64,000 nucleotides of DNA from Ramlibacter sp. Leaf400 (lineage in GTDB: Bacteria; Pseudomonadota; Gammaproteobacteria; Burkholderiales; Burkholderiaceae_C): NCBI RefSeq assembly GCF_001424545.1, contig NZ_LMQL01000002.1, positions 63,434 through 127,433 of the forward strand, given 5' to 3'. The position numbers were made by a program, and so were the translations under genes. Shown one piece after another: positions 50,716-63,542 of the stretch. The notes under the pieces are model-generated. The model saw nothing but the letters and a program-made list of their open reading frames with translations. It ran no database searches and was not told the origin of the DNA. Every line of letters starts with the position of its first letter. Position 1 is the stretch's first letter.

Positions 50716-51420
50716 TCAGACACCCAGGTACGCCTGCCGGATCTCCGGCCGCTTCATCAGTTCGTCGGGCTCGCCCTCGGCCACGATGCGGCCCAGCTCC
50801 AGCACGCAGGCGCGGTGCGAGACCTTCATCGCCATCGAGACGTTCTGCTCGACCAGCACGATGGTGATGCCGCCGGCGCTCACCTTGCGGATGGCGTCGA
50901 ACATGTCGCCCACGACCAGCGGCGACAGGCCCAGCGAGGGCTCGTCCAGCAGCAGCAGGCGCGGCCGCGCCATCAGCGCCCGGCCGATCGCCACCATCTG
51001 CTGCTGGCCGCCGGACAGCTCGCCGGCCGCGCTGGACAGCTTGGCCTTGAGCGCCGGGAAGAGCTGCAGCACCTCGTCCAGCGTCTGGCGCCGCCGTGCC
51101 TTGGCGGCCGGCAGGAAGCTGCCCACGTCGAGGTTCTCCGCCACCGTCATGCCGGAGAAGAGCCGCCGCCCCTCGGGCACGAGCGCGATGCCGGCCTCGC
51201 AGAAGCGGTGCGGCGCCAGCCGCGTGATGTCGCGCCCCTCGATGGCGATGCGGCCCGACACCGGGCGCAGGATGCCGGCCAGCGTGTTGACCAGCGTGGT
51301 CTTGCCGGCGCCGTTGGGTCCCACCACGCAGAGCAGCTCGCCCTGCGCCACCTTCATCGAGACGTCCCACAACGCGTGCGCCTGGCCGTAGGCCACCGTG
51401 AGCTGCTCCAGTTCAAGCAT
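50716..51420 (-). CDS. livF: LivF-type branched-chain/aromatic ABC transporter ATPase
   Basis: 234 residues. Walker A GPNGAGKTTL (about 35-44), signature LSGGQQQM, Walker B LLLLDEPS. Energises the LivH/LivM permease in the inner membrane. It overlaps the 3' end of the livM-livG gene by eight bases. In Burkholderiales such HAAT systems often import aromatic acids rather than amino acids, which suits the intradiol dioxygenase in the same operon. Confidence 0.94.
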   Translation of the reverse strand: MLELEQLTVAYGQAHALWDVSMKVAQGELLCVVGPNGAGKTTLVNTLAGILRPVSGRIAIEGRDITRLAPHRFCEAGIALVPEGRRLFSGMTVAENLDVGSFLPAAKARRRQTLDEVLQLFPALKAKLSSAAGELSGGQQQMVAIGRALMARPRLLLLDEPSLGLSPLVVGDMFDAIRKVSAGGITIVLVEQNVSMAMKVSHRACVLELGRIVAEGEPDELMKRPEIRQAYLGV

Positions 51421-53233
51421 GCGACACCCCCAGGTAGGCGCTCATCACGGCCGGGCTGCGCATCACCTCGCGCGGCGCCCCCTCGGCCAGCATGGCGCCC
51501 TGGTCGAACACCACGATTCGGTCGGTCAGCGCCATCACGGCGTCCATGACGTGCTCGACGAACACGATGGTCGTGCCATGGTCGCGGATGCGGCGGATCA
51601 GGGCCACGGCCGACTGGATCTCGGTGGGCGTGAGGCCGCACAGCACCTCGTCCAGCAGCACCAGCCGGGGCCGCGAGGCGAGCGCGCGCGCCAGCTCGAG
51701 GAACTTGCGCTGGTGCAGGTTCAGCTCGCCGGGCAGCACCTGGGCCTTGCCCGCCAGGTGCGCGAACTCCAGCCACTGCACCGCCTCGCGCCGGCCCTCG
51801 TCCATGCTGCCCAGGCCCTGGCCCGCGTACATGGCGGCGATGGCCACGTTGTCCAGCACGCTCATCTGCGAGAACGGCCGCGGGATCTGGTAGGTGCGCG
51901 CGATGCCGGCGCGGGCGATCCGGTGCGCGGGCAGGCCGGCGATGTCGCGCCCGTCGAGCAGCACCTGCCCGCCGTCGGGCAGGAAGTGGCCGCTGACCAC
52001 GTTGATGAAGGTCGACTTGCCCGAGCCGTTGGGCCCGAGCAGGCCGAGGATCTCGCCCTGGCGCACTTCGAGGTTGACGCTGGAGAGGGCCTTGAGGCCG
52101 CGGAAGGATTTGGAGAGGTTGCGCACGACCAGCAGCGGTGGGGCCGGGGGTGCGCCACGCCCGCGACCGCCATCGACGCTACAGCTACCGTCATCCCCGC
52201 GGAGGCGGGGATCCAGTGCTTCCACGGGGGCCGGTGCAGCCACGATGGCGGGAGCCGGTGAAGGCGGAAGCCCTGGATTCCCGCCTTCGCGGGAATGACG
52301 GGGTTGTCGCCGCAGCTTCCCCATCACCCCTTCCGGCATGAACAGGATCCCCACCACCAGGATCAGCCCGATCGCCCCCTTCCCCAGCACCGCGAACTCA
52401 CCGCCGGTGAAGGCGAACAGCAGGCAGGTGATGGCCACCGCCCCGATCGCCGGCCCCGCCCAGTGGCGGGTGCCGCCCAGGATGCTCATGAGCACCACGG
52501 TCAGGGGCACGGTGAGGTTGAAGGTCTCGGCCGTGGTGACGTACGAGATGAACAGCGCATGGATGCCGCCGACCCAGCCCGCCAGCGCGCACGACACGGC
52601 CAGCGCCGCCAGCTTCCAGCGGTAGGTGGGCACGCCCATCACCTCGGCCGCCTCCTCGTCGTCGTGGATGGCGAACAGGCCCGCGCCGAAGCGCGAATGG
52701 CGGATCGCCCAGGAGACCAGCAGCGTGGCCACCGCCGCGGCCAGCATCATCAGGAACAGGCTGGACGTGGGCGTCGGCCCGATCTTCGGGACCGGCACCG
52801 CGTTGAGGTACACGCCCGGGCCGCCGTCGATCGGCGTGTTGCCAACGATGGTGGCCACCACGAACGTCACGGCCAGCGTGAGCAGCGCGAACAGCTCGCC
52901 GCGCACCCCCCGCACGCGGAACGCCACCGCGCCCACGCCGACGCCGATGGCGGCCGCCACCAGCGCGGCCACCGGCAGCGTCCAGAGGAACGGCCAGTCG
53001 AACTTGGCCGCCAGCGTGGCGCTGGTGTAGACGCCGGCACCGAAGAAGGCGCCGTGCCCGAACGAGAAGTAGCCCGCGTAGCCCGACAGGATGTTCCAGG
53101 ACGTGGCCAGCACCACCCAGAACAGCGCCAGGTACAGGAAAGATTCGTAGAAGGCCGGCAGCCGCAGGAACGGCAGCGCGGCCAGCAGCAGGCCAGCGCC
53201 GAGCACGGCGGCGGGGGCGGCACGCGGCTTCAT
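51413..53233 (-). CDS. Fused LivM permease - LivG ATPase with repeat-encoded linker
   Basis: 606 residues in one uninterrupted frame. Residues 1-311 are LivM (about ten helices; SWNILSGYAGYFSFGHGAFFGAG). Residues about 312-349 are the translation of a REP-like element (HSREGGNPGLPPS ... LDPRLRGDDG). From about 365 LivG starts (LLVVRNLSKSFRGLKALSSV), Walker A GPNGSGKSTF, ELNLHQRKFLELARAL signature and LLDEVLCGL Walker B. No stop or credible start codon separates the halves. Fusions of these subunits are known, but the linker looks like the scar of a repeat insertion that removed the livM stop. ATG 53233 overlaps the livH stop. Confidence 0.9.
   Translation of the reverse strand: MKPRAAPAAVLGAGLLLAALPFLRLPAFYESFLYLALFWVVLATSWNILSGYAGYFSFGHGAFFGAGVYTSATLAAKFDWPFLWTLPVAALVAAAIGVGVGAVAFRVRGVRGELFALLTLAVTFVVATIVGNTPIDGGPGVYLNAVPVPKIGPTPTSSLFLMMLAAAVATLLVSWAIRHSRFGAGLFAIHDDEEAAEVMGVPTYRWKLAALAVSCALAGWVGGIHALFISYVTTAETFNLTVPLTVVLMSILGGTRHWAGPAIGAVAITCLLFAFTGGEFAVLGKGAIGLILVVGILFMPEGVMGKLRRQPRHSREGGNPGLPPSPAPAIVAAPAPVEALDPRLRGDDGSCSVDGGRGRGAPPAPPLLVVRNLSKSFRGLKALSSVNLEVRQGEILGLLGPNGSGKSTFINVVSGHFLPDGGQVLLDGRDIAGLPAHRIARAGIARTYQIPRPFSQMSVLDNVAIAAMYAGQGLGSMDEGRREAVQWLEFAHLAGKAQVLPGELNLHQRKFLELARALASRPRLVLLDEVLCGLTPTEIQSAVALIRRIRDHGTTIVFVEHVMDAVMALTDRIVVFDQGAMLAEGAPREVMRSPAVMSAYLGVSHA
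52189..52300. repeat. REP-like palindromic element, copy 2 (inside the livM-livG frame)
   Basis: Outer units 52189-52216 and 52273-52300 are inverted copies of CGTCATYCCCGC...GCGGGRATCCAG around a 56-bp core. The element is translated through, giving the SREGGNP and RLRGDD peptide signatures of such repeats. Confidence 0.92.
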
Positions 53234-54090
53234 CGCACCCGTCCCGGCCGCAGCAGCAGGATCACGATCAGCAGCGTGAACGACACCAGCGGCGCCCACG
53301 ACGGCGAGGTCACGGCCATGGTCACCGCCTCGCTCACGCCGATGACGATGCCGGCCACCAGCGGCCCGAGCGCCGTGCCCAGGCCGCCCAGCATCACGGC
53401 GGCGAACACCACGCCGACCCACGCGTACATCTGCGACGGGCTGATGCTGCTGGACAGCGCGATGCACACGCCGGCGATGCCCGCCAGCGCTGCGCAGGTG
53501 CCCGCCAGCAGGAAGCCGTTGCGGCGCTGGTTGATGCCGAAGGCCGCCGCGACCGGCGCGTCCTCCGCCGAGGCGCGCAGGGCCTTGCCCAGGTCGGTGT
53601 AGCGCAGCAGCGCCCACACGCCCACGGAGATCGCCACGGCCAGCGCCAGCGTCAGCAGTTCGGGGATGGGCAGGAACAGCGGGCCGACGCGCAGCTTCAT
53701 CTCGGCGTAGTGCGACTCCAGCTTGCGCGGGTCGGCGGTCCACACCGTCTGCATCAGCGATTCGAGGATGCCCATGCAGCCGAAGGTGAGCAGCAGCGAG
53801 CTGAAGGGTGTCAGCCGGAAGCGGTCGGTGAGCCAGTGCAGGCCCGCGCCCAGCCCGAACATCAGCGGCACGATGCCGGCCAGCGTCAGCAGCGGGTCGA
53901 TCTTCGAGACCACCGCCAGCTGCCAGCAGATGTAGGCGGACAGGAACGCGAAGGCGAAGTGCGCCAGGTTGATGGTCCGCAGCAGCCCCCACGACAGGCC
54001 GAGGCCGAGGCCCAGCAGGCCGTACAGGGCACCCGCGAACACCCCGGATAGCACGGACTGGGCGAGCAGGGTCCAGCTTGGAAAGGTCAT
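53230..54090 (-). CDS. livH: LivH-type ABC transporter permease
   Basis: 286 residues, about eight helices. N-terminal GALYGLLGLGLGLSWGLLRTINLAHFAF and GLGTALGPLVAGIVIGV are LivH signatures. Forms the translocation pore with the LivM half of the fused protein. The stop overlaps the livM-livG start (ATGA). Upstream 124 bp to livJ contain REP copy 3. Start ATG 54090, weak ribosome binding site (TTGGAAAGGTC). Confidence 0.94.
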   Translation of the reverse strand: MTFPSWTLLAQSVLSGVFAGALYGLLGLGLGLSWGLLRTINLAHFAFAFLSAYICWQLAVVSKIDPLLTLAGIVPLMFGLGAGLHWLTDRFRLTPFSSLLLTFGCMGILESLMQTVWTADPRKLESHYAEMKLRVGPLFLPIPELLTLALAVAISVGVWALLRYTDLGKALRASAEDAPVAAAFGINQRRNGFLLAGTCAALAGIAGVCIALSSSISPSQMYAWVGVVFAAVMLGGLGTALGPLVAGIVIGVSEAVTMAVTSPSWAPLVSFTLLIVILLLRPGRVR

Positions 54091-54100
54091 GGCGTTTTCC

Positions 54101-54192
54101 CGTCATTCCCGCGGAGGCGGGAATCCAGGGCTCCCGCCTTCGGCGGTGGACAAAGGCGGAAGCACTGGATCCCCGCCTTCGCGGGGATGACG
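54101..54192. repeat. REP-like palindromic element, copy 3 (livJ-livH spacer)
   Basis: Inverted units 54101-54128 and 54165-54192 around a 36-bp core. It fills nearly the whole livJ-livH spacer and could, as with REP/BIME elements, stabilise the upstream mRNA so that the receptor is made in excess over the permease (inference). Confidence 0.92.
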
Positions 54193-54214
54193 GTGTGGTG
54201 AAGGCCGCGCACGC

Positions 54215-55420
54215 TCAGCGCGCCAGCATCTTCGCGCCCGGCGCGGAGAACTCCGGCGGGTACACCACCTGCCACTTGCCGTTCTGCACCTGCTTGATGC
54301 GCATCAGGTCGTCGCCGTAGTTGGACGGCCCGTCAAAGCGCAGGCTGCCCTGGATGGTCTCGACGCGGTTCTTCTTCAGCCAGTCGGCGATCTGCTTGTC
54401 GTCCAGGCCCTTGGTCGCATTGACCGCGGCCTCCAGGATCTGCCACGCCGTGAACGAGGCCGCGGCCTGCACCTCCACCGAGGTGTCGGGGAAGTTGGCC
54501 TTGGCCGCGCGCTCGCGGTAGGCCTTGATGAACTCCGCGGCCTTCGGGCGGTCGCTGAAGGGCGGGTGCTCCTCGAAGATGGTGACCGACAGCGCGCCCT
54601 GCGCCTCGGGCAGGGTGACCAGCGGGCCCGGCGCCGGGTACAGGTAGAAGTGCTGCGGCGGCGCGTAGTCGATCTTCTTCATCGCGTCCAGCAGCAGGTT
54701 GCCGTCCAGGCCGATCGCGCCCACCCAGACGAAGTCGGGCCTGGCGTCCTTGATGCGGCTGGCGATCGGGCCGAAGTCGCGGTTGCCGAACTCCCACTCC
54801 AGGAACAGCACCTCCTGCAGCCCGCGCTTCTTGACCGTCTCGCGCGCACCCATGGACATGAAGTGGATGGACGGGAACTTGCTGGTGACCACGGCGACGG
54901 TCTTGGGCGGCTTGGGCCCCTTGGCCAGCGCCTCGAACACCGTGTTGGTGGTGGTGGTGCCCGGGTCCGAGCCGAGCGACCAGGCCGGGAACTGCATGTC
55001 GTACTTGGCCAGCGACGGCACGCCCAGCGTGTGGTGGACCAGCACCTTGTTGTAGCGCTGGGCCACGCCCATGGCCGAGAGGATGGCGCCGGTCGCGTAC
55101 GGCCCCATCAGCAGGTCCACCTTGTCCGAGGTGATCAGCTGCTCGTACAGCGTGCGGGCCAGGTCGGGCTTGGACTGGTCGTCCTTGAGCACCCACTCCA
55201 CCCGGCGCCCGAGCAGGCCGCCGCGGCGGTTGAGCTCCTCGACGTAGATGTCGCCCACCAGCTTGTGCACCTGCGCCGTCGCGGAGAGCGGTCCGGTCAG
55301 GGCCAGGGTGCTGCCGATGCGGATCGGCGGCTGCTGCTGCGCGAAAGCCAGCGGCGCGGCGGCGGTGATCGCGGCCGCCGCCAGGACGGTGCGGCGATGC
55401 ACGGAACGCGGGTGGGTCAT
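54215..55420 (-). CDS. LivJ-type ABC transporter substrate-binding protein
   Basis: 401 residues. Tat-like signal peptide (SVHRRTVLAAAAITAAAPLAFAQ), then a type-1 periplasmic binding fold: IRIGSTLALTGPLSATAQVHKLVGDIYVEELNRRGGLLGRRVE. Periplasmic receptor of the Liv-type importer; ligand could be an amino acid, amide or aromatic acid. GAAGGAGACAGCC precedes ATG 55420. The 83 bp upstream to the CoA-transferase stop show nothing else. Confidence 0.93.
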   Translation of the reverse strand: MTHPRSVHRRTVLAAAAITAAAPLAFAQQQPPIRIGSTLALTGPLSATAQVHKLVGDIYVEELNRRGGLLGRRVEWVLKDDQSKPDLARTLYEQLITSDKVDLLMGPYATGAILSAMGVAQRYNKVLVHHTLGVPSLAKYDMQFPAWSLGSDPGTTTTNTVFEALAKGPKPPKTVAVVTSKFPSIHFMSMGARETVKKRGLQEVLFLEWEFGNRDFGPIASRIKDARPDFVWVGAIGLDGNLLLDAMKKIDYAPPQHFYLYPAPGPLVTLPEAQGALSVTIFEEHPPFSDRPKAAEFIKAYRERAAKANFPDTSVEVQAAASFTAWQILEAAVNATKGLDDKQIADWLKKNRVETIQGSLRFDGPSNYGDDLMRIKQVQNGKWQVVYPPEFSAPGAKMLAR

Positions 55421-55503: not shown

Positions 55504-56649
55504 TCATGCGGCGCTCCTGTCGCGCAGCATGGCGTCGATCTGCCCGTTGTGCTCGCCCAGCGTGGGCGGCGGCAGCACGGAGAGCGAGCGTTGGCCGTCG
55601 AAGCTCACGGGCGGGCGCACGGTGCGGAACTCGCCCATCGTCGGATGCGTGGCCTGCACCAGCAGCTGCAGGTGGCGGGCCTGCGGGTCCTCCAGCGCCT
55701 CGTCGGTGTCGTACATGGGCGCGTGCGGCACGTCCTGCGCCAGCAGGCGGTTGCACCACTCGGTGCGGGTGCGCGTGGCGAAGATGCCGGAGAGCAGTTC
55801 GATGATGGCTTCCTGGTGCTCGATGCGCGCCTCGCGCGTGGCGAAGCGCGGGTCCTGGAACATGCCGGGCCGGTCGATCGCCTGGGCCAGCCCCTGCCAG
55901 AACTTCTCGGGCGAGGACATGTGCAGCGCCACCCACTTGCCGTCCTTGCACTCCATCACGTACGACTGCGACACGCGCGGCCGGCTGAACGGCCCCATCA
56001 CCTCGCCCGCCGAGTAGTAGTGCGTGAAGGCGTCCAGGTTCCAGTGCGACATCGCCTCCAGCATCGAGACCTCGACCATGCGGCCGCGGCCGGTGCGCGC
56101 GCGCTCGTGCAGCGCGCCCAGCACACCGTAGGCGGCATAGAAGCCGGTCACGGCGTCGGCGATGGCGGGGCCGACCACGCGCGGGTTGGCGGGATTCACC
56201 AGCAGCTTCAGGTAGCCGCTGGCGGCCTGCGCCACGGTGTCGTAGCTGGGACGCGAAGCCGAGGGGCCGTCGGGGCCGAAGCCGCTGATCGAGCAGTAGA
56301 TCAGGCGCGGGTTGAGCGCGCGCAGCTGCTGCTCGCCCACGCCCAGCGCCTGCGCCACGCCCGGGCGGAAGTTCTGGATGTAGACGTCGGCGGTCTTCAC
56401 CAGCTCGTGCAGGCGCTCGCGGTCGGCCGGCTGCTTGGTGTCCAGCGTGATGCTGCGCTTGTTGCGGTTGTAGGTCTGGAAGTGCGGGCTGTACAGCCCG
56501 CCCTTGAAGGCGCGGAAGGGGTCGCCCGTGCCCGGCTGCTCGACCTTGATGACGTCGGCGCCCAGGTCGCCCAGCAGCATGCCGCAGGCCGGGCCGGTGA
56601 TGAAGGTGCCCTGCTCGAGCACGCGCACGTCCTGGAGCACGCCGGTCAC
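55504..56649 (-). CDS. CaiB/BaiF (class III) CoA-transferase
   Basis: 381 residues, catalytic Asp165 (AIADAVTGFYAA), N-terminal VRVLEQGTFITGPACGMLLGDLGADVIKVE. Transfers CoA to a carboxylic acid. Starts at GTG 56649, overlapping the citryl-CoA-lyase-like stop by four bases (GTGA). The pair CoA-transferase plus citryl-CoA-lyase-like enzyme would activate and then cleave a citrate- or citramalate-like acid. Confidence 0.92.
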   Translation of the reverse strand: MTGVLQDVRVLEQGTFITGPACGMLLGDLGADVIKVEQPGTGDPFRAFKGGLYSPHFQTYNRNKRSITLDTKQPADRERLHELVKTADVYIQNFRPGVAQALGVGEQQLRALNPRLIYCSISGFGPDGPSASRPSYDTVAQAASGYLKLLVNPANPRVVGPAIADAVTGFYAAYGVLGALHERARTGRGRMVEVSMLEAMSHWNLDAFTHYYSAGEVMGPFSRPRVSQSYVMECKDGKWVALHMSSPEKFWQGLAQAIDRPGMFQDPRFATREARIEHQEAIIELLSGIFATRTRTEWCNRLLAQDVPHAPMYDTDEALEDPQARHLQLLVQATHPTMGEFRTVRPPVSFDGQRSLSVLPPPTLGEHNGQIDAMLRDRSAA

Positions 56650-57461
56650 TTCGCTTCCTCCCCGGCGCCCGGGCCTTCGTAGACCAGCTCGCGCGTGGCC
56701 TGGTACGACAGCGCGAAGCCGCTCGGATTGACCGCCTCCTCGCCCAGGTGGGCGATCAGGCTGGCGGTGCGCGCCAGGATGGGCACGCCGCGCAGCGCGC
56801 GCAGGGGGAAGTTCGTGCCCAGCAGCACGGCGGGGATGGCGGCCGAGACGTTCAGGCGCAGGTCCTTGCCCACGATCCCGGGGATCACCTGCTCGATGGC
56901 CTCGGCGATCTCCACGAAGCGCAGCCGGGTGCCTGCTTCCTTGGCCACCTCGAACAGGCGCGCCACGCGAGGGTCGCGCTCCTTGTGCAGCGGGTGGCCG
57001 TAGCCCGGCACCGGACGGCCGGCTTCGCGCCAGCGGCGCACGACGGTCGTGGCGGCCCCGGCCAGGTCCCCGCCCTGCTTCGCGGTCTCGTCGACTTCGG
57101 CGAACAGCCGCCCCGCCGTTTCCGACGCGCCCAGGATCACGCTGCCGCAGCCCAGGATGCCGGCCGCCACCGCGCCCTGCAGCGCATCCGGCGCCGCCGC
57201 GTACGTCATGCGGCCGGCCTGCACGCTCGGCACCATGCCGTGCTCGGCGATCGCCACCAGCGTGGCGTCGAGCACCATGGCATCGCCTTTCGACGGACGC
57301 TGGCCCGTGACCAGCAGGCTGAAGTAGTCGGTGAACGAGATGCGCCCGATCAGGTCGCGGCACAGGTCCTCGCCGCGCACGGTGATGCTGTGCTCGTCCG
57401 AGGTGCTGATGGCCGTGCGCGGCACGGTGGACTTGCCGATCTTGTTGATGGAGCTGCTCAT
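56646..57461 (-). CDS. Citryl-CoA-lyase-like (short citrate synthase family) protein
   Basis: 271 residues, much shorter than citrate synthase (about 430) and typical of citryl-CoA lyase-type members. PGYGHPLHKERDPR (His156, His159) and ALRGVPILARTASLIAHLGEE are the family core. It would cleave a 3-hydroxyacyl-CoA such as citryl-CoA to an acetyl-CoA and a 2-oxoacid. Preceded by REP copy 4 (124-bp spacer to the dioxygenase gene). No clear ribosome binding site beyond GGAGGTCGCCC. Confidence 0.85.
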   Translation of the reverse strand: MSSSINKIGKSTVPRTAISTSDEHSITVRGEDLCRDLIGRISFTDYFSLLVTGQRPSKGDAMVLDATLVAIAEHGMVPSVQAGRMTYAAAPDALQGAVAAGILGCGSVILGASETAGRLFAEVDETAKQGGDLAGAATTVVRRWREAGRPVPGYGHPLHKERDPRVARLFEVAKEAGTRLRFVEIAEAIEQVIPGIVGKDLRLNVSAAIPAVLLGTNFPLRALRGVPILARTASLIAHLGEEAVNPSGFALSYQATRELVYEGPGAGEEAK

Positions 57462-57480
57462 TGGGCGACCTCCCGCTCCT

Positions 57481-57569
57481 CGTCGTCCCCGCGGAGGCGG
57501 GGACCCAGTGCTTCCATCGCAGTCCGCTCAAGGCGGACGCTCTGGATTCCCGCCTTCGCGGGAATGACG
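57481..57569. repeat. REP-like palindromic element, copy 4 (dioxygenase-lyase spacer)
   Basis: Inverted units 57481-57508 and 57542-57569 around a 33-bp core. The left unit has two changes from the consensus (CGTCGTC and GGACCCAG), the right is intact. Fills the spacer after the dioxygenase gene. Confidence 0.92.
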
Positions 57570-57585
57570 GCAATGAAGGGATTGC

Positions 57586-62336: not shown

Positions 62337-63542
62337 TCAGCGCACCGCGGCGCCCAGCAGCTCGCGGGCGATGGTGTTGCGCTGGATCTCGCTGGTGCCG
62401 GTGAGCACCCGGTACATGCGCAGCAGGCGGAACAGGAACTCCACCCGGCTGCCCTGCACGATGCCCTCGCCGCCGTGGACCTGGACGGCGCGGTCGGCGA
62501 TGCGGAAGGCGGTCTCGGAACAGAACAGCTTGGCCATCGAGGCCTCGGCGCGCGCCTCGCCGCCGCCGTCCAGCGTGCGCGCCACGCTCAGCATGAGGGC
62601 GCGCGCCGCGGCGAGTTCGGTGGCCATGTCGGCCAGCATGTGCTGCACCGCCTGGAAAGCGCCGATCGGCTGGCCGAACTGGCGGCGGCCCACCGCGTGG
62701 GCCAGGGAATCCTCCAGCGCCAGCCGCGCCAGCCCCAGCATCGCCGGGCAGTGCAGCAGGCGGTTGACCGTGATGCGGCCCAGCGCCAGGGCCAGCCCGC
62801 GGCCGCGCTCGCCGATCTGGTTGGCCGCGGGGATGCGGCAGCCCTCCAGCACGATGTTGCCGGTGTGCGACTGGCCGGCCATGGTCTTGTAGCCCGCCTC
62901 CACGCGGAAGCCCGCCCGCTCGCGCTCGACGAAGAACGCGGTGGTCTCGCGCACCGCCGGGTCGTCGCTGGTCGAGGCGATCACGACGGCGAAGTCGCAG
63001 AAGGGCGAGCCGGAGATGAAGCGCTTGGTGCCGTCCAGCACCCATTCGTCGCCGTCGCGGCGGGCGCGGGTCTGCAGCGCGCCCGCGTCGGAGCCGGCTT
63101 CGGGTTCGGTGATCGCGAAGCAGACCGCCTTCTCGGCCCGCGCCACCGGCAGGATGAAGCGCTCCATCTGGTCGGGCGTCGCCTGCTTGGCGAGCGCGCC
63201 GACGCGCGGAGGTCCGGTGAGCTCGCCCAGCACGTGGGCGGCGAAGGGCGAACCGCTGGCGTAGATCGCTTCCTTGATCTGCACGTGGTCGACCAGGCTG
63301 AAGCCGGCGCCGCCCAGCGCCTGGGGCAGGGTCACGCCGTAGAAGCCCAGCTCGCGCGAGCGCATCCACACCTGCTGCAGCAGCGCCTTGGGGGCGCCGC
63401 TCTCGTGCGTGATGCCGTGCTCCCGGGCCAGCGGCTGAAGTTCGGTGCGGATGAAGTCCTGCACCTTCGCGATGAACGCGGCGGCGGCGTCGGAGCCTTC
63501 GAAGCGGGCCGCGGGCGCGGCCGGGGTGATGGTGGCATCCAT
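62337..63542 (-). CDS. Acyl-CoA dehydrogenase
   Basis: 401 residues. FAITEPEAGSDAGALQTRA and DGTKRFISGSPFCDFAVVIAS form the FAD/substrate region; the C-terminus QVHGGEGIVQGSRVEFLFRLLRMYRVLTGTSEIQRNTIAR is classical. ATG 63542 with GAGGAG. Lies 10 bp downstream of the acyl-CoA ligase gene, so it probably oxidises the CoA ester made by that ligase. Confidence 0.94.
   Translation of the reverse strand: MDATITPAAPAARFEGSDAAAAFIAKVQDFIRTELQPLAREHGITHESGAPKALLQQVWMRSRELGFYGVTLPQALGGAGFSLVDHVQIKEAIYASGSPFAAHVLGELTGPPRVGALAKQATPDQMERFILPVARAEKAVCFAITEPEAGSDAGALQTRARRDGDEWVLDGTKRFISGSPFCDFAVVIASTSDDPAVRETTAFFVERERAGFRVEAGYKTMAGQSHTGNIVLEGCRIPAANQIGERGRGLALALGRITVNRLLHCPAMLGLARLALEDSLAHAVGRRQFGQPIGAFQAVQHMLADMATELAAARALMLSVARTLDGGGEARAEASMAKLFCSETAFRIADRAVQVHGGEGIVQGSRVEFLFRLLRMYRVLTGTSEIQRNTIARELLGAAVR

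Follow-up and report, generated by a model that had tools for sequence, protein, structure and literature searches.

The window that we analysed, a 64,000-nucleotide stretch of the Ramlibacter sp. Leaf400 genome (G000, 4.59 Mb; positions 63,434 to 127,433 of contig NZ_LMQL01000002.1), carries on its minus strand an operon of a periplasmic binding-protein gene, livH, a fused livM-livG gene (hereafter, livMG) and livF (Table 1). As livH, livMG and livF overlap by a few bases, the sole spacer among the four genes is the one before livH. The livMG frame is open from an ATG at 53233 to its stop codon. The list of open reading frames gives it as 897 codons, because the frame runs open back into livH, which is read in another frame; we place the start at 53233 since this agrees with the orthologues and with a 4-base overlap with livH. 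The predicted protein has a calculated mass of 63.7 kDa, and Pfam finds, besides BPD_transp_2 in the permease part, ABC_tran at residues 383-529 and BCA_ABC_TP_C at 581-606. A preliminary description of this DNA was thus right in reading LivM and LivG as one frame of 606 codons.

By these permease and ATPase domains, and with LivH, LivF and a binding protein encoded alongside, the operon encodes a branched-chain-type ABC half-transporter, the curated NCBIfam LivG model scoring the fused ATPase at 186 bits against a cut-off of 362, so that branched-chain amino acids are a putative substrate. The ABC signature position reads LNLHQ in the window, and NLHQ is matched in 106 of 113 orthologues; valine replaces proline after the DE of Walker B in all 94 readable orthologues. 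DEP is present in all 17 readable sequences of 29 fused paralogues, and the adjoining livF has LSGGQ. One ATP site of the ABC pair may be degenerate.

Table 1. Features of the liv operon and its repeats (window coordinates)
Feature	Position	Strand	Basis
Fused livM-livG reading frame, 606 codons	51416..53233	-	stop 51413-51415; orthologues likewise fused
LivM permease part, codons 1-302	52328..53233	-	Pfam BPD_transp_2 residues 30-271
Interdomain linker as measured, codons 303-364	52142..52327	-	orthologue comparison; AlphaFold pLDDT
CGTC-type REP dimer encoding RHSREGGNP...LDPRLRGDDG, codons 312-348	52189..52300	-	sequence, BLAST, motif
First REP arm in gene sense (RHSREGGNP)	52275..52300	-	motif position
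Second, inverted REP arm (LDPRLRGDDG)	52189..52214	-	motif position
LivG ATPase part, codons 365-606	51416..52141	-	LNLHQ signature; V after Walker B DE
livF ATPase gene, canonical LSGGQ	50716..51420	-	overlaps livMG end
livH permease gene	53230..54090	-	overlaps livMG start
REP dimer, same family, livH/binding-protein spacer	54099..54194	.	similar inverted pair
Periplasmic binding-protein gene	54215..55420	-	Peripla_BP_6
Further REP dimer, same family, upstream of operon	57480..57570	.	similar inverted pair

The repeat in the livMG linker

The repeat in the linker is 112 nt long; it begins with codon 312, ends on the first base of codon 349 and encodes 37 of the 62 linker residues in the window species. 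CGTC-tagged REPs are described, in the sections of PMC3733652 at hand, as palindromes with a CGTC end, a stem of 8-9 bp, a loop of 4-5 nt and a 3-bp tail. The linker element is an inverted pair of such a palindrome, both arms reading CGTC, an 8-bp stem, a 4-nt loop and the tail CCA. Many dispersed copies, a further mark of these repeats, are present in the window genome: BLAST returns at least 86 matches (arms and strands taken separately; 40 of 292 first-look candidates scored), a repetition far beyond chance, and 42 distinct dimers with the CGTC ends outward, the only arrangement counted, lie in 39 places. Together with the two similar dimers near the operon (Table 1), these matches confirm that the linker codons are a REP element, and they support the view that this repeat, which recurs in a neighbouring spacer of the operon, supplies most of the coding sequence for the fused protein's linker; both points are as the preliminary description had them.

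As expected of CGTC-tagged REPs, the copies lie mostly outside genes. We sampled 48 copies from 40 stretches of the genome, those most like the linker copy, and called genes around them with our own codon-usage gene caller; 43 fall between genes, four have an uncalled side, and the single intragenic copy is the exception in the livMG linker. A search of Rfam found no family at the gathering score, the best match being a sub-threshold miRNA match to the hairpin.

When AlphaFold is given the window protein and 43 orthologues, the ATPase half is predicted confidently, as is the membrane part over most of residues 1-230, with weaker block means of 51-62 at residues 231-300. The pLDDT falls below 50 at residues 300-305 and 312-359, the latter segment being modelled without secondary structure, and we take the linker as predicted to be disordered. 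Among the matches to solved structures, all 60 listed of 337 fall on the ATPase half.

Fused orthologues and the repeats in their linkers

Orthologues were sought at the level of the genus (60 genomes), of the family (399 genomes, E up to 1e-120, of which 20 matched) and in 84,980 species genomes, from which the best 80 of 292 relatives were kept. Some loci are duplicates, coming from a genome present in two collections, and gene counts therefore use 113 distinct genes. These correspond to 138 measurable loci of 139 (L037 is without a G part), with G056 excluded as a rearranged remnant. All are in one frame without a stop, including those of Variovorax, Polaromonas, Rhodoferax, Pusillimonas and Ferrovibrio, as well as those genes of the genus that had at first looked split in two (G001, G009, G016, G022:C100, G028, G050). 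An open frame by chance, considered as a candidate explanation, was rejected on this count. No unfused orthologue is among the loci found, in a search whose fused query favours fused genes and may have missed unfused ones; G056 has only the LivG remnant. In that genome the remnant (L202; G056:C41:64200-66000) is joined to the start of a gene that resembles, by eye, window positions 56646-57461, as if the genes in between had been deleted.

The linkers span 87 to 276 nt (29 to 92 residues), and 86 of the 113 match none of our repeat motifs. Since all 113 genes are fused and these 86 are without a recognised repeat, the fusion is older than the repeat; on sequence comparison, it long predates the genus. 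The preliminary description had proposed that insertion of the repeat at the livM-livG junction created the fusion. That proposal fails on these counts and on the many label changes that the trees below require, and orthologues fused through an unrelated linker, the outcome that the description had itself set against its proposal, are what the junction comparison turned up.

From the linkers themselves we derived motifs for six repeat families, which were then checked on controls and genomes. These motifs match 27 of the 113 distinct linkers: five with F1 (RHSREGGNP..LDPRLRGDDG), one with a GC-rich F1 variant, five with F2 (LPPPLGEGxGGG), eight with F3 (PNPLPQAGEG and Variovorax variants), five with F4 (VIPGxTRDP) and three with F5 (VRPExVEG..STxSxRT). 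F1, its variant and F4 share a CGTC head, and F2 resembles F3, so we count at least three superfamilies. L017 was left out of the 27 although its linker holds a disrupted F3, and L002 was counted on one arm only. The motifs do not occur in 226 flanking coding segments (181,973 nt), in the reversed linkers or in 20 rounds of codon shuffling.

Within families, the copies of F1, F2, F4 and F5 and six of the eight of F3 encode the same type of peptide. Selection, a fixed register or shared ancestry may account for this. In L031, the F1 variant is translated in another frame than F1. In the sister species L050 and L051, the F5 dimer lies in opposite orientation and the same peptide type is read. 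The repeat makes up nearly the whole linker in L005 and L009 (Ramlibacter albus type), about 6 of 29 linker residues being non-repeat in the latter. L001 and L002 share a decaying F1 insertion, with one arm kept, the other worn and the frame intact. The F3 of L017 (G031) is interrupted in frame by a palindromic segment, and the L017 linker is 48 nt longer than that of its sister L024, where F3 is intact; tested for dispersal, this segment is single-copy in G031. In L012 (G023), four in-frame tandem 21-nt units (VIPGAHA/VIPGAQA) precede the F4 repeat and have apparently grown out of its head. The linkers of R. albus and two Caenimonas are identical to linkers in further genomes of the genus.

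Two linkers outside the 27 stood out. That of the paralogue L148 has a 10-bp perfect stem before LivG, outside the six motifs, and that of L117 (Polaromonas) has a fold z of -4.3, the lowest of the non-repeat linkers; both possibly represent further repeat families.

The linker repeats are dispersed in most host genomes tested; the copy counts below take in the linker copy wherever the pattern is able to match it. F1 has 63 matches in G000, 25 in G058, 31 in G027, 14 in G051 and 30 in G002, and its variant has 20 sites in G050; F2 has 8 matches in G010, 27 in G057, 21 in G048, 37 in G019 and 7 in G028. For F3 we counted 17 sites in G046, 8 in G013, 5 in G059, 3 in G030, 3 in G005 (one being the linker itself) and 74 in G250, for F4 66 in G023, 32 in G040, 54 in G016 and 2 (1+1) in G032, and for F5 46 in G168, 154 in G188 and 145 in G278. 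The linker repeat is scarce in some genomes, namely F3 in G005 and F4 in G032 and G004, the F4 pattern having no match in G004, where the linker copy itself is too diverged for it. The L031 motif, used in place of the variants' own motifs, has no match in the genomes of the Variovorax variants L073 and L075. The commonest family is not always the one in the linker: G019 has 56 F1 matches against 37 for F2, yet its linker is F2, and F1 is likewise abundant in G010 (31 matches), where the linker holds another family.

The linker copy of L009 is 96% identical to another copy of its own genome and at most 87% to those copies of other genomes that are listed over most of the query, whereas that of L005 is 85% identical to a copy of its own genome and 88% to one of G000. 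Host-specific likeness is clear for L009 and not for L005, so one F1 insertion per species is not proven; one old F1 insertion, replaced later in some lineages, is possible.

Of the 113 genes, 54 went into a tree built without the linker; the choice centred on the genus and took in every one of the 27 repeat carriers, with L036 omitted for its long branch. Under parsimony, in which gain and loss of a repeat label are indistinguishable, this tree requires 18 changes between the three superfamilies and "none", five of which fall inside the window's 14-gene clade; a quick tree made from all 113 genes and scored with seven labels requires 20. Sisters differ, with F1 in L009 beside F2 in L010 (C. 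sedimenti type) and F2 in L008 beside F3 in L028. In the window clade, 13 of 14 linkers carry a repeat, and the assembly of a fifteenth member, G022, is broken at the linker position, with an F2-like repeat at either contig end. The clade exception, L007 (Caenimonas soli type, G020), has a genome with no F1, no F2, 2 F3 and 48 F4 sites. Judged from the gene sequences, the linker has been entered recurrently by palindromic repeats of at least three unrelated superfamilies.

The linker is also hit more often than other DNA of the same loci. Across 80 named loci, the linkers (10,911 nt) contain 15 sites, spread over 13 of them, and the remaining DNA (694,749 nt) contains 8. When our own gene caller, trained on each locus, divided this remainder into called coding (622,908 nt) and spacer-like (71,841 nt) sequence, all 8 fell in the spacer-like class. 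Linkers therefore carry 1.37 sites per kb against 0.11 in spacer-like DNA, about a twelvefold difference, where tolerance alone predicts no excess over spacers. Three Variovorax species (loci L071, L083 and L100) have F3 motifs some 940-970 nt ahead of the linker, in spacer-like DNA that immediately precedes the fused gene. For comparison, 40 paralogous loci of the genus were sampled, from which eleven (L212-L222) were excluded, as their sole match was to LivG and the preceding region was not LivM; ten of these pass the script's crude open-frame rule. The remaining 29 fused LivM-LivG paralogues have no motif in the 150 nt before LivG. Within the genus, 21 of 37 orthologue linkers have a repeat versus none of the 29 paralogues (Fisher 1.5e-7, with rows that are phylogenetically non-independent), although tolerance alone would lead one to expect repeats in fused paralogue linkers too. 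Outside the genus, 6 of 76 orthologue linkers carry one.

What may bring repeats into this linker

We consider it probable that the linker acts as a flexible tether with an unconstrained sequence, and that palindromes without stops in several frames can settle in its DNA. In the ancestral LivM-LivG fusion, a tether predicted to be disordered joins the membrane part to the ATPase. By comparison of the orthologues, dispersed palindromes have entered it repeatedly in Ramlibacter and relatives, the old tether has largely been lost and the repeat has become the tether, insertion presumably coming before deletion. Copies might survive because the palindromes are stop-free in several frames (of six frames, 4 to 6 are open in the consensus repeat arms, but an average of only 3.4 in 42 actual F1 dimers from G000), because hydrophilic, disordered peptides would be harmless in a tether, and because a translated hairpin would leave expression of the operon undisturbed. 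Such a tether would work by length and flexibility and not by sequence. The nearest relative, L002, in which the palindrome has decayed (fold z -0.2) and the frame is kept, fits a mere tether. This reading leaves the spared paralogues and the less-hit spacers unexplained, and we think that the excess over the tethers of sister transporters reflects an insertion preference together with unusual tolerance.

A stronger proposal is that the linker is a privileged docking site, on which unrelated mobile palindromes converge in frame, with the host gaining by their renewal or a shared mechanism directing them; we regard this as possible, but somewhat doubtful. An insertion hotspot, at which the junction DNA or a resident palindrome guides insertion whatever the cost to the host, seems unlikely to us. 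It would account for the excess of sites over spacer-like DNA and over the fused paralogues, and for a clade in which nearly every linker, together with the broken one of G022, carries a repeat; moreover, a Y1-type transposase gene (PF01797) is found in 15 of 15 clade genomes, once in each and twice in G028 (G000:C12:236138-236464 in the window genome). However, the same gene is present in G020, whose linker has no repeat, and CGTC REPs are reported, in the parts of PMC3733652 consulted, to be without a dedicated transposase. Motif starts are also scattered, from 15 to 171 nt into the linker, with no common flanking sequence by eye, and the unrelated superfamilies would need one common mechanism.

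We find it improbable that a hairpin at the junction is under selection, whether because in the mRNA it would slow translation and give the last membrane helices time to insert ahead of the ATPase, or because it would protect the message. Against codon-shuffled copies, repeat linkers do fold much more strongly (median z -3.3; 19 of the 27 score below -2), and non-repeat linkers show slightly more structure than coding windows do (median z -0.5 vs 0.4 and 0.15), but any palindrome is expected to fold strongly, and 75 of the 86 non-repeat linkers are not below z -2. Like L002, L032 (z 0.6) has kept the frame without the fold, and the sampled paralogues, which face the same membrane problem, are without repeats. 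The outcome of the codon-shuffle test of hairpin selection is mixed.

That no stable fusion protein exists, the linker being cut or LivG also being made from an internal start, is very unlikely in our view: a long linker without predicted structure would suit it, but none of the 113 genes has a stop or frameshift in the 87-276 nt of a linker that otherwise changes freely, which points to selection for an unbroken livMG frame. Scarcely credible, finally, is a fusion made by the repeat itself, for although the L009 and L005 linkers look like a translated former spacer in being nearly all repeat, the distant Polaromonas, Pusillimonas and Ferrovibrio genes and most of those of Variovorax are fused without recognised repeats.

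Significance and comparison with known systems

The livMG genes form a natural series, in which 27 related genes have one tether with different selfish repeats and sisters without recognised repeats serve as controls. The series opens three questions to direct test: the minimum of sequence that suffices to tether two domains, the route by which a selfish element turns indispensable to a protein, and the existence of preferred sites for REP insertion. If the docking-site reading is true, selfish repeats are a replaceable spare part of a protein.

The operon resembles LivHMGF importers in its Pfam domains and in its gene set with livH, livF and a binding protein. It differs from them in that LivM and LivG are one predicted chain and that the ATPase has LNLHQ for the usual signature.

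REPs are regarded as extragenic. RepRanger, as presented in the excerpts of PMC12306157, defines them as seldom overlapping genes, yet the available sections of PMC3733652 report REPs and REP dimers inside genes of several species, in varied host genes, many of them for DNA synthesis and repair, and its authors propose a position in flexible linkers or loops as the reason why such insertions may be neutral. The window linker is like these intragenic GTAG and CGTC REPs in being a REP dimer within a gene, in a linker predicted to be flexible. Unlike the cases described in those sections of PMC3733652, one transporter linker has here been entered repeatedly, across species, by CGTC REPs and at least two other superfamilies. 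The preliminary description had thought that a linker made from the repeat of neighbouring spacers seemed undescribed. Intragenic REPs and the flexible-linker idea were already in print; in the partial texts of the literature consulted, we found no report of a single linker entered repeatedly by unrelated repeat families.

A close parallel is the Rickettsia palindromic element (RPE), for which the references are reportedly Ogata et al. 2000 and 2002. RPEs are mobile palindromes that add an in-frame peptide to proteins; according to the portions of PMC10969869 and PMC3733652 at hand, their families enter many unrelated genes of one genome, and nearly half of the copies are intragenic. The livMG repeats are like RPEs in being in-frame inserts in a protein left intact, with both domains present and the frame open. 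They are unlike RPEs in that F1 has entered genes in only 1 of 48 sampled copies and so does not spread through many genes, and in that what is constant here is the gene, not the repeat family.
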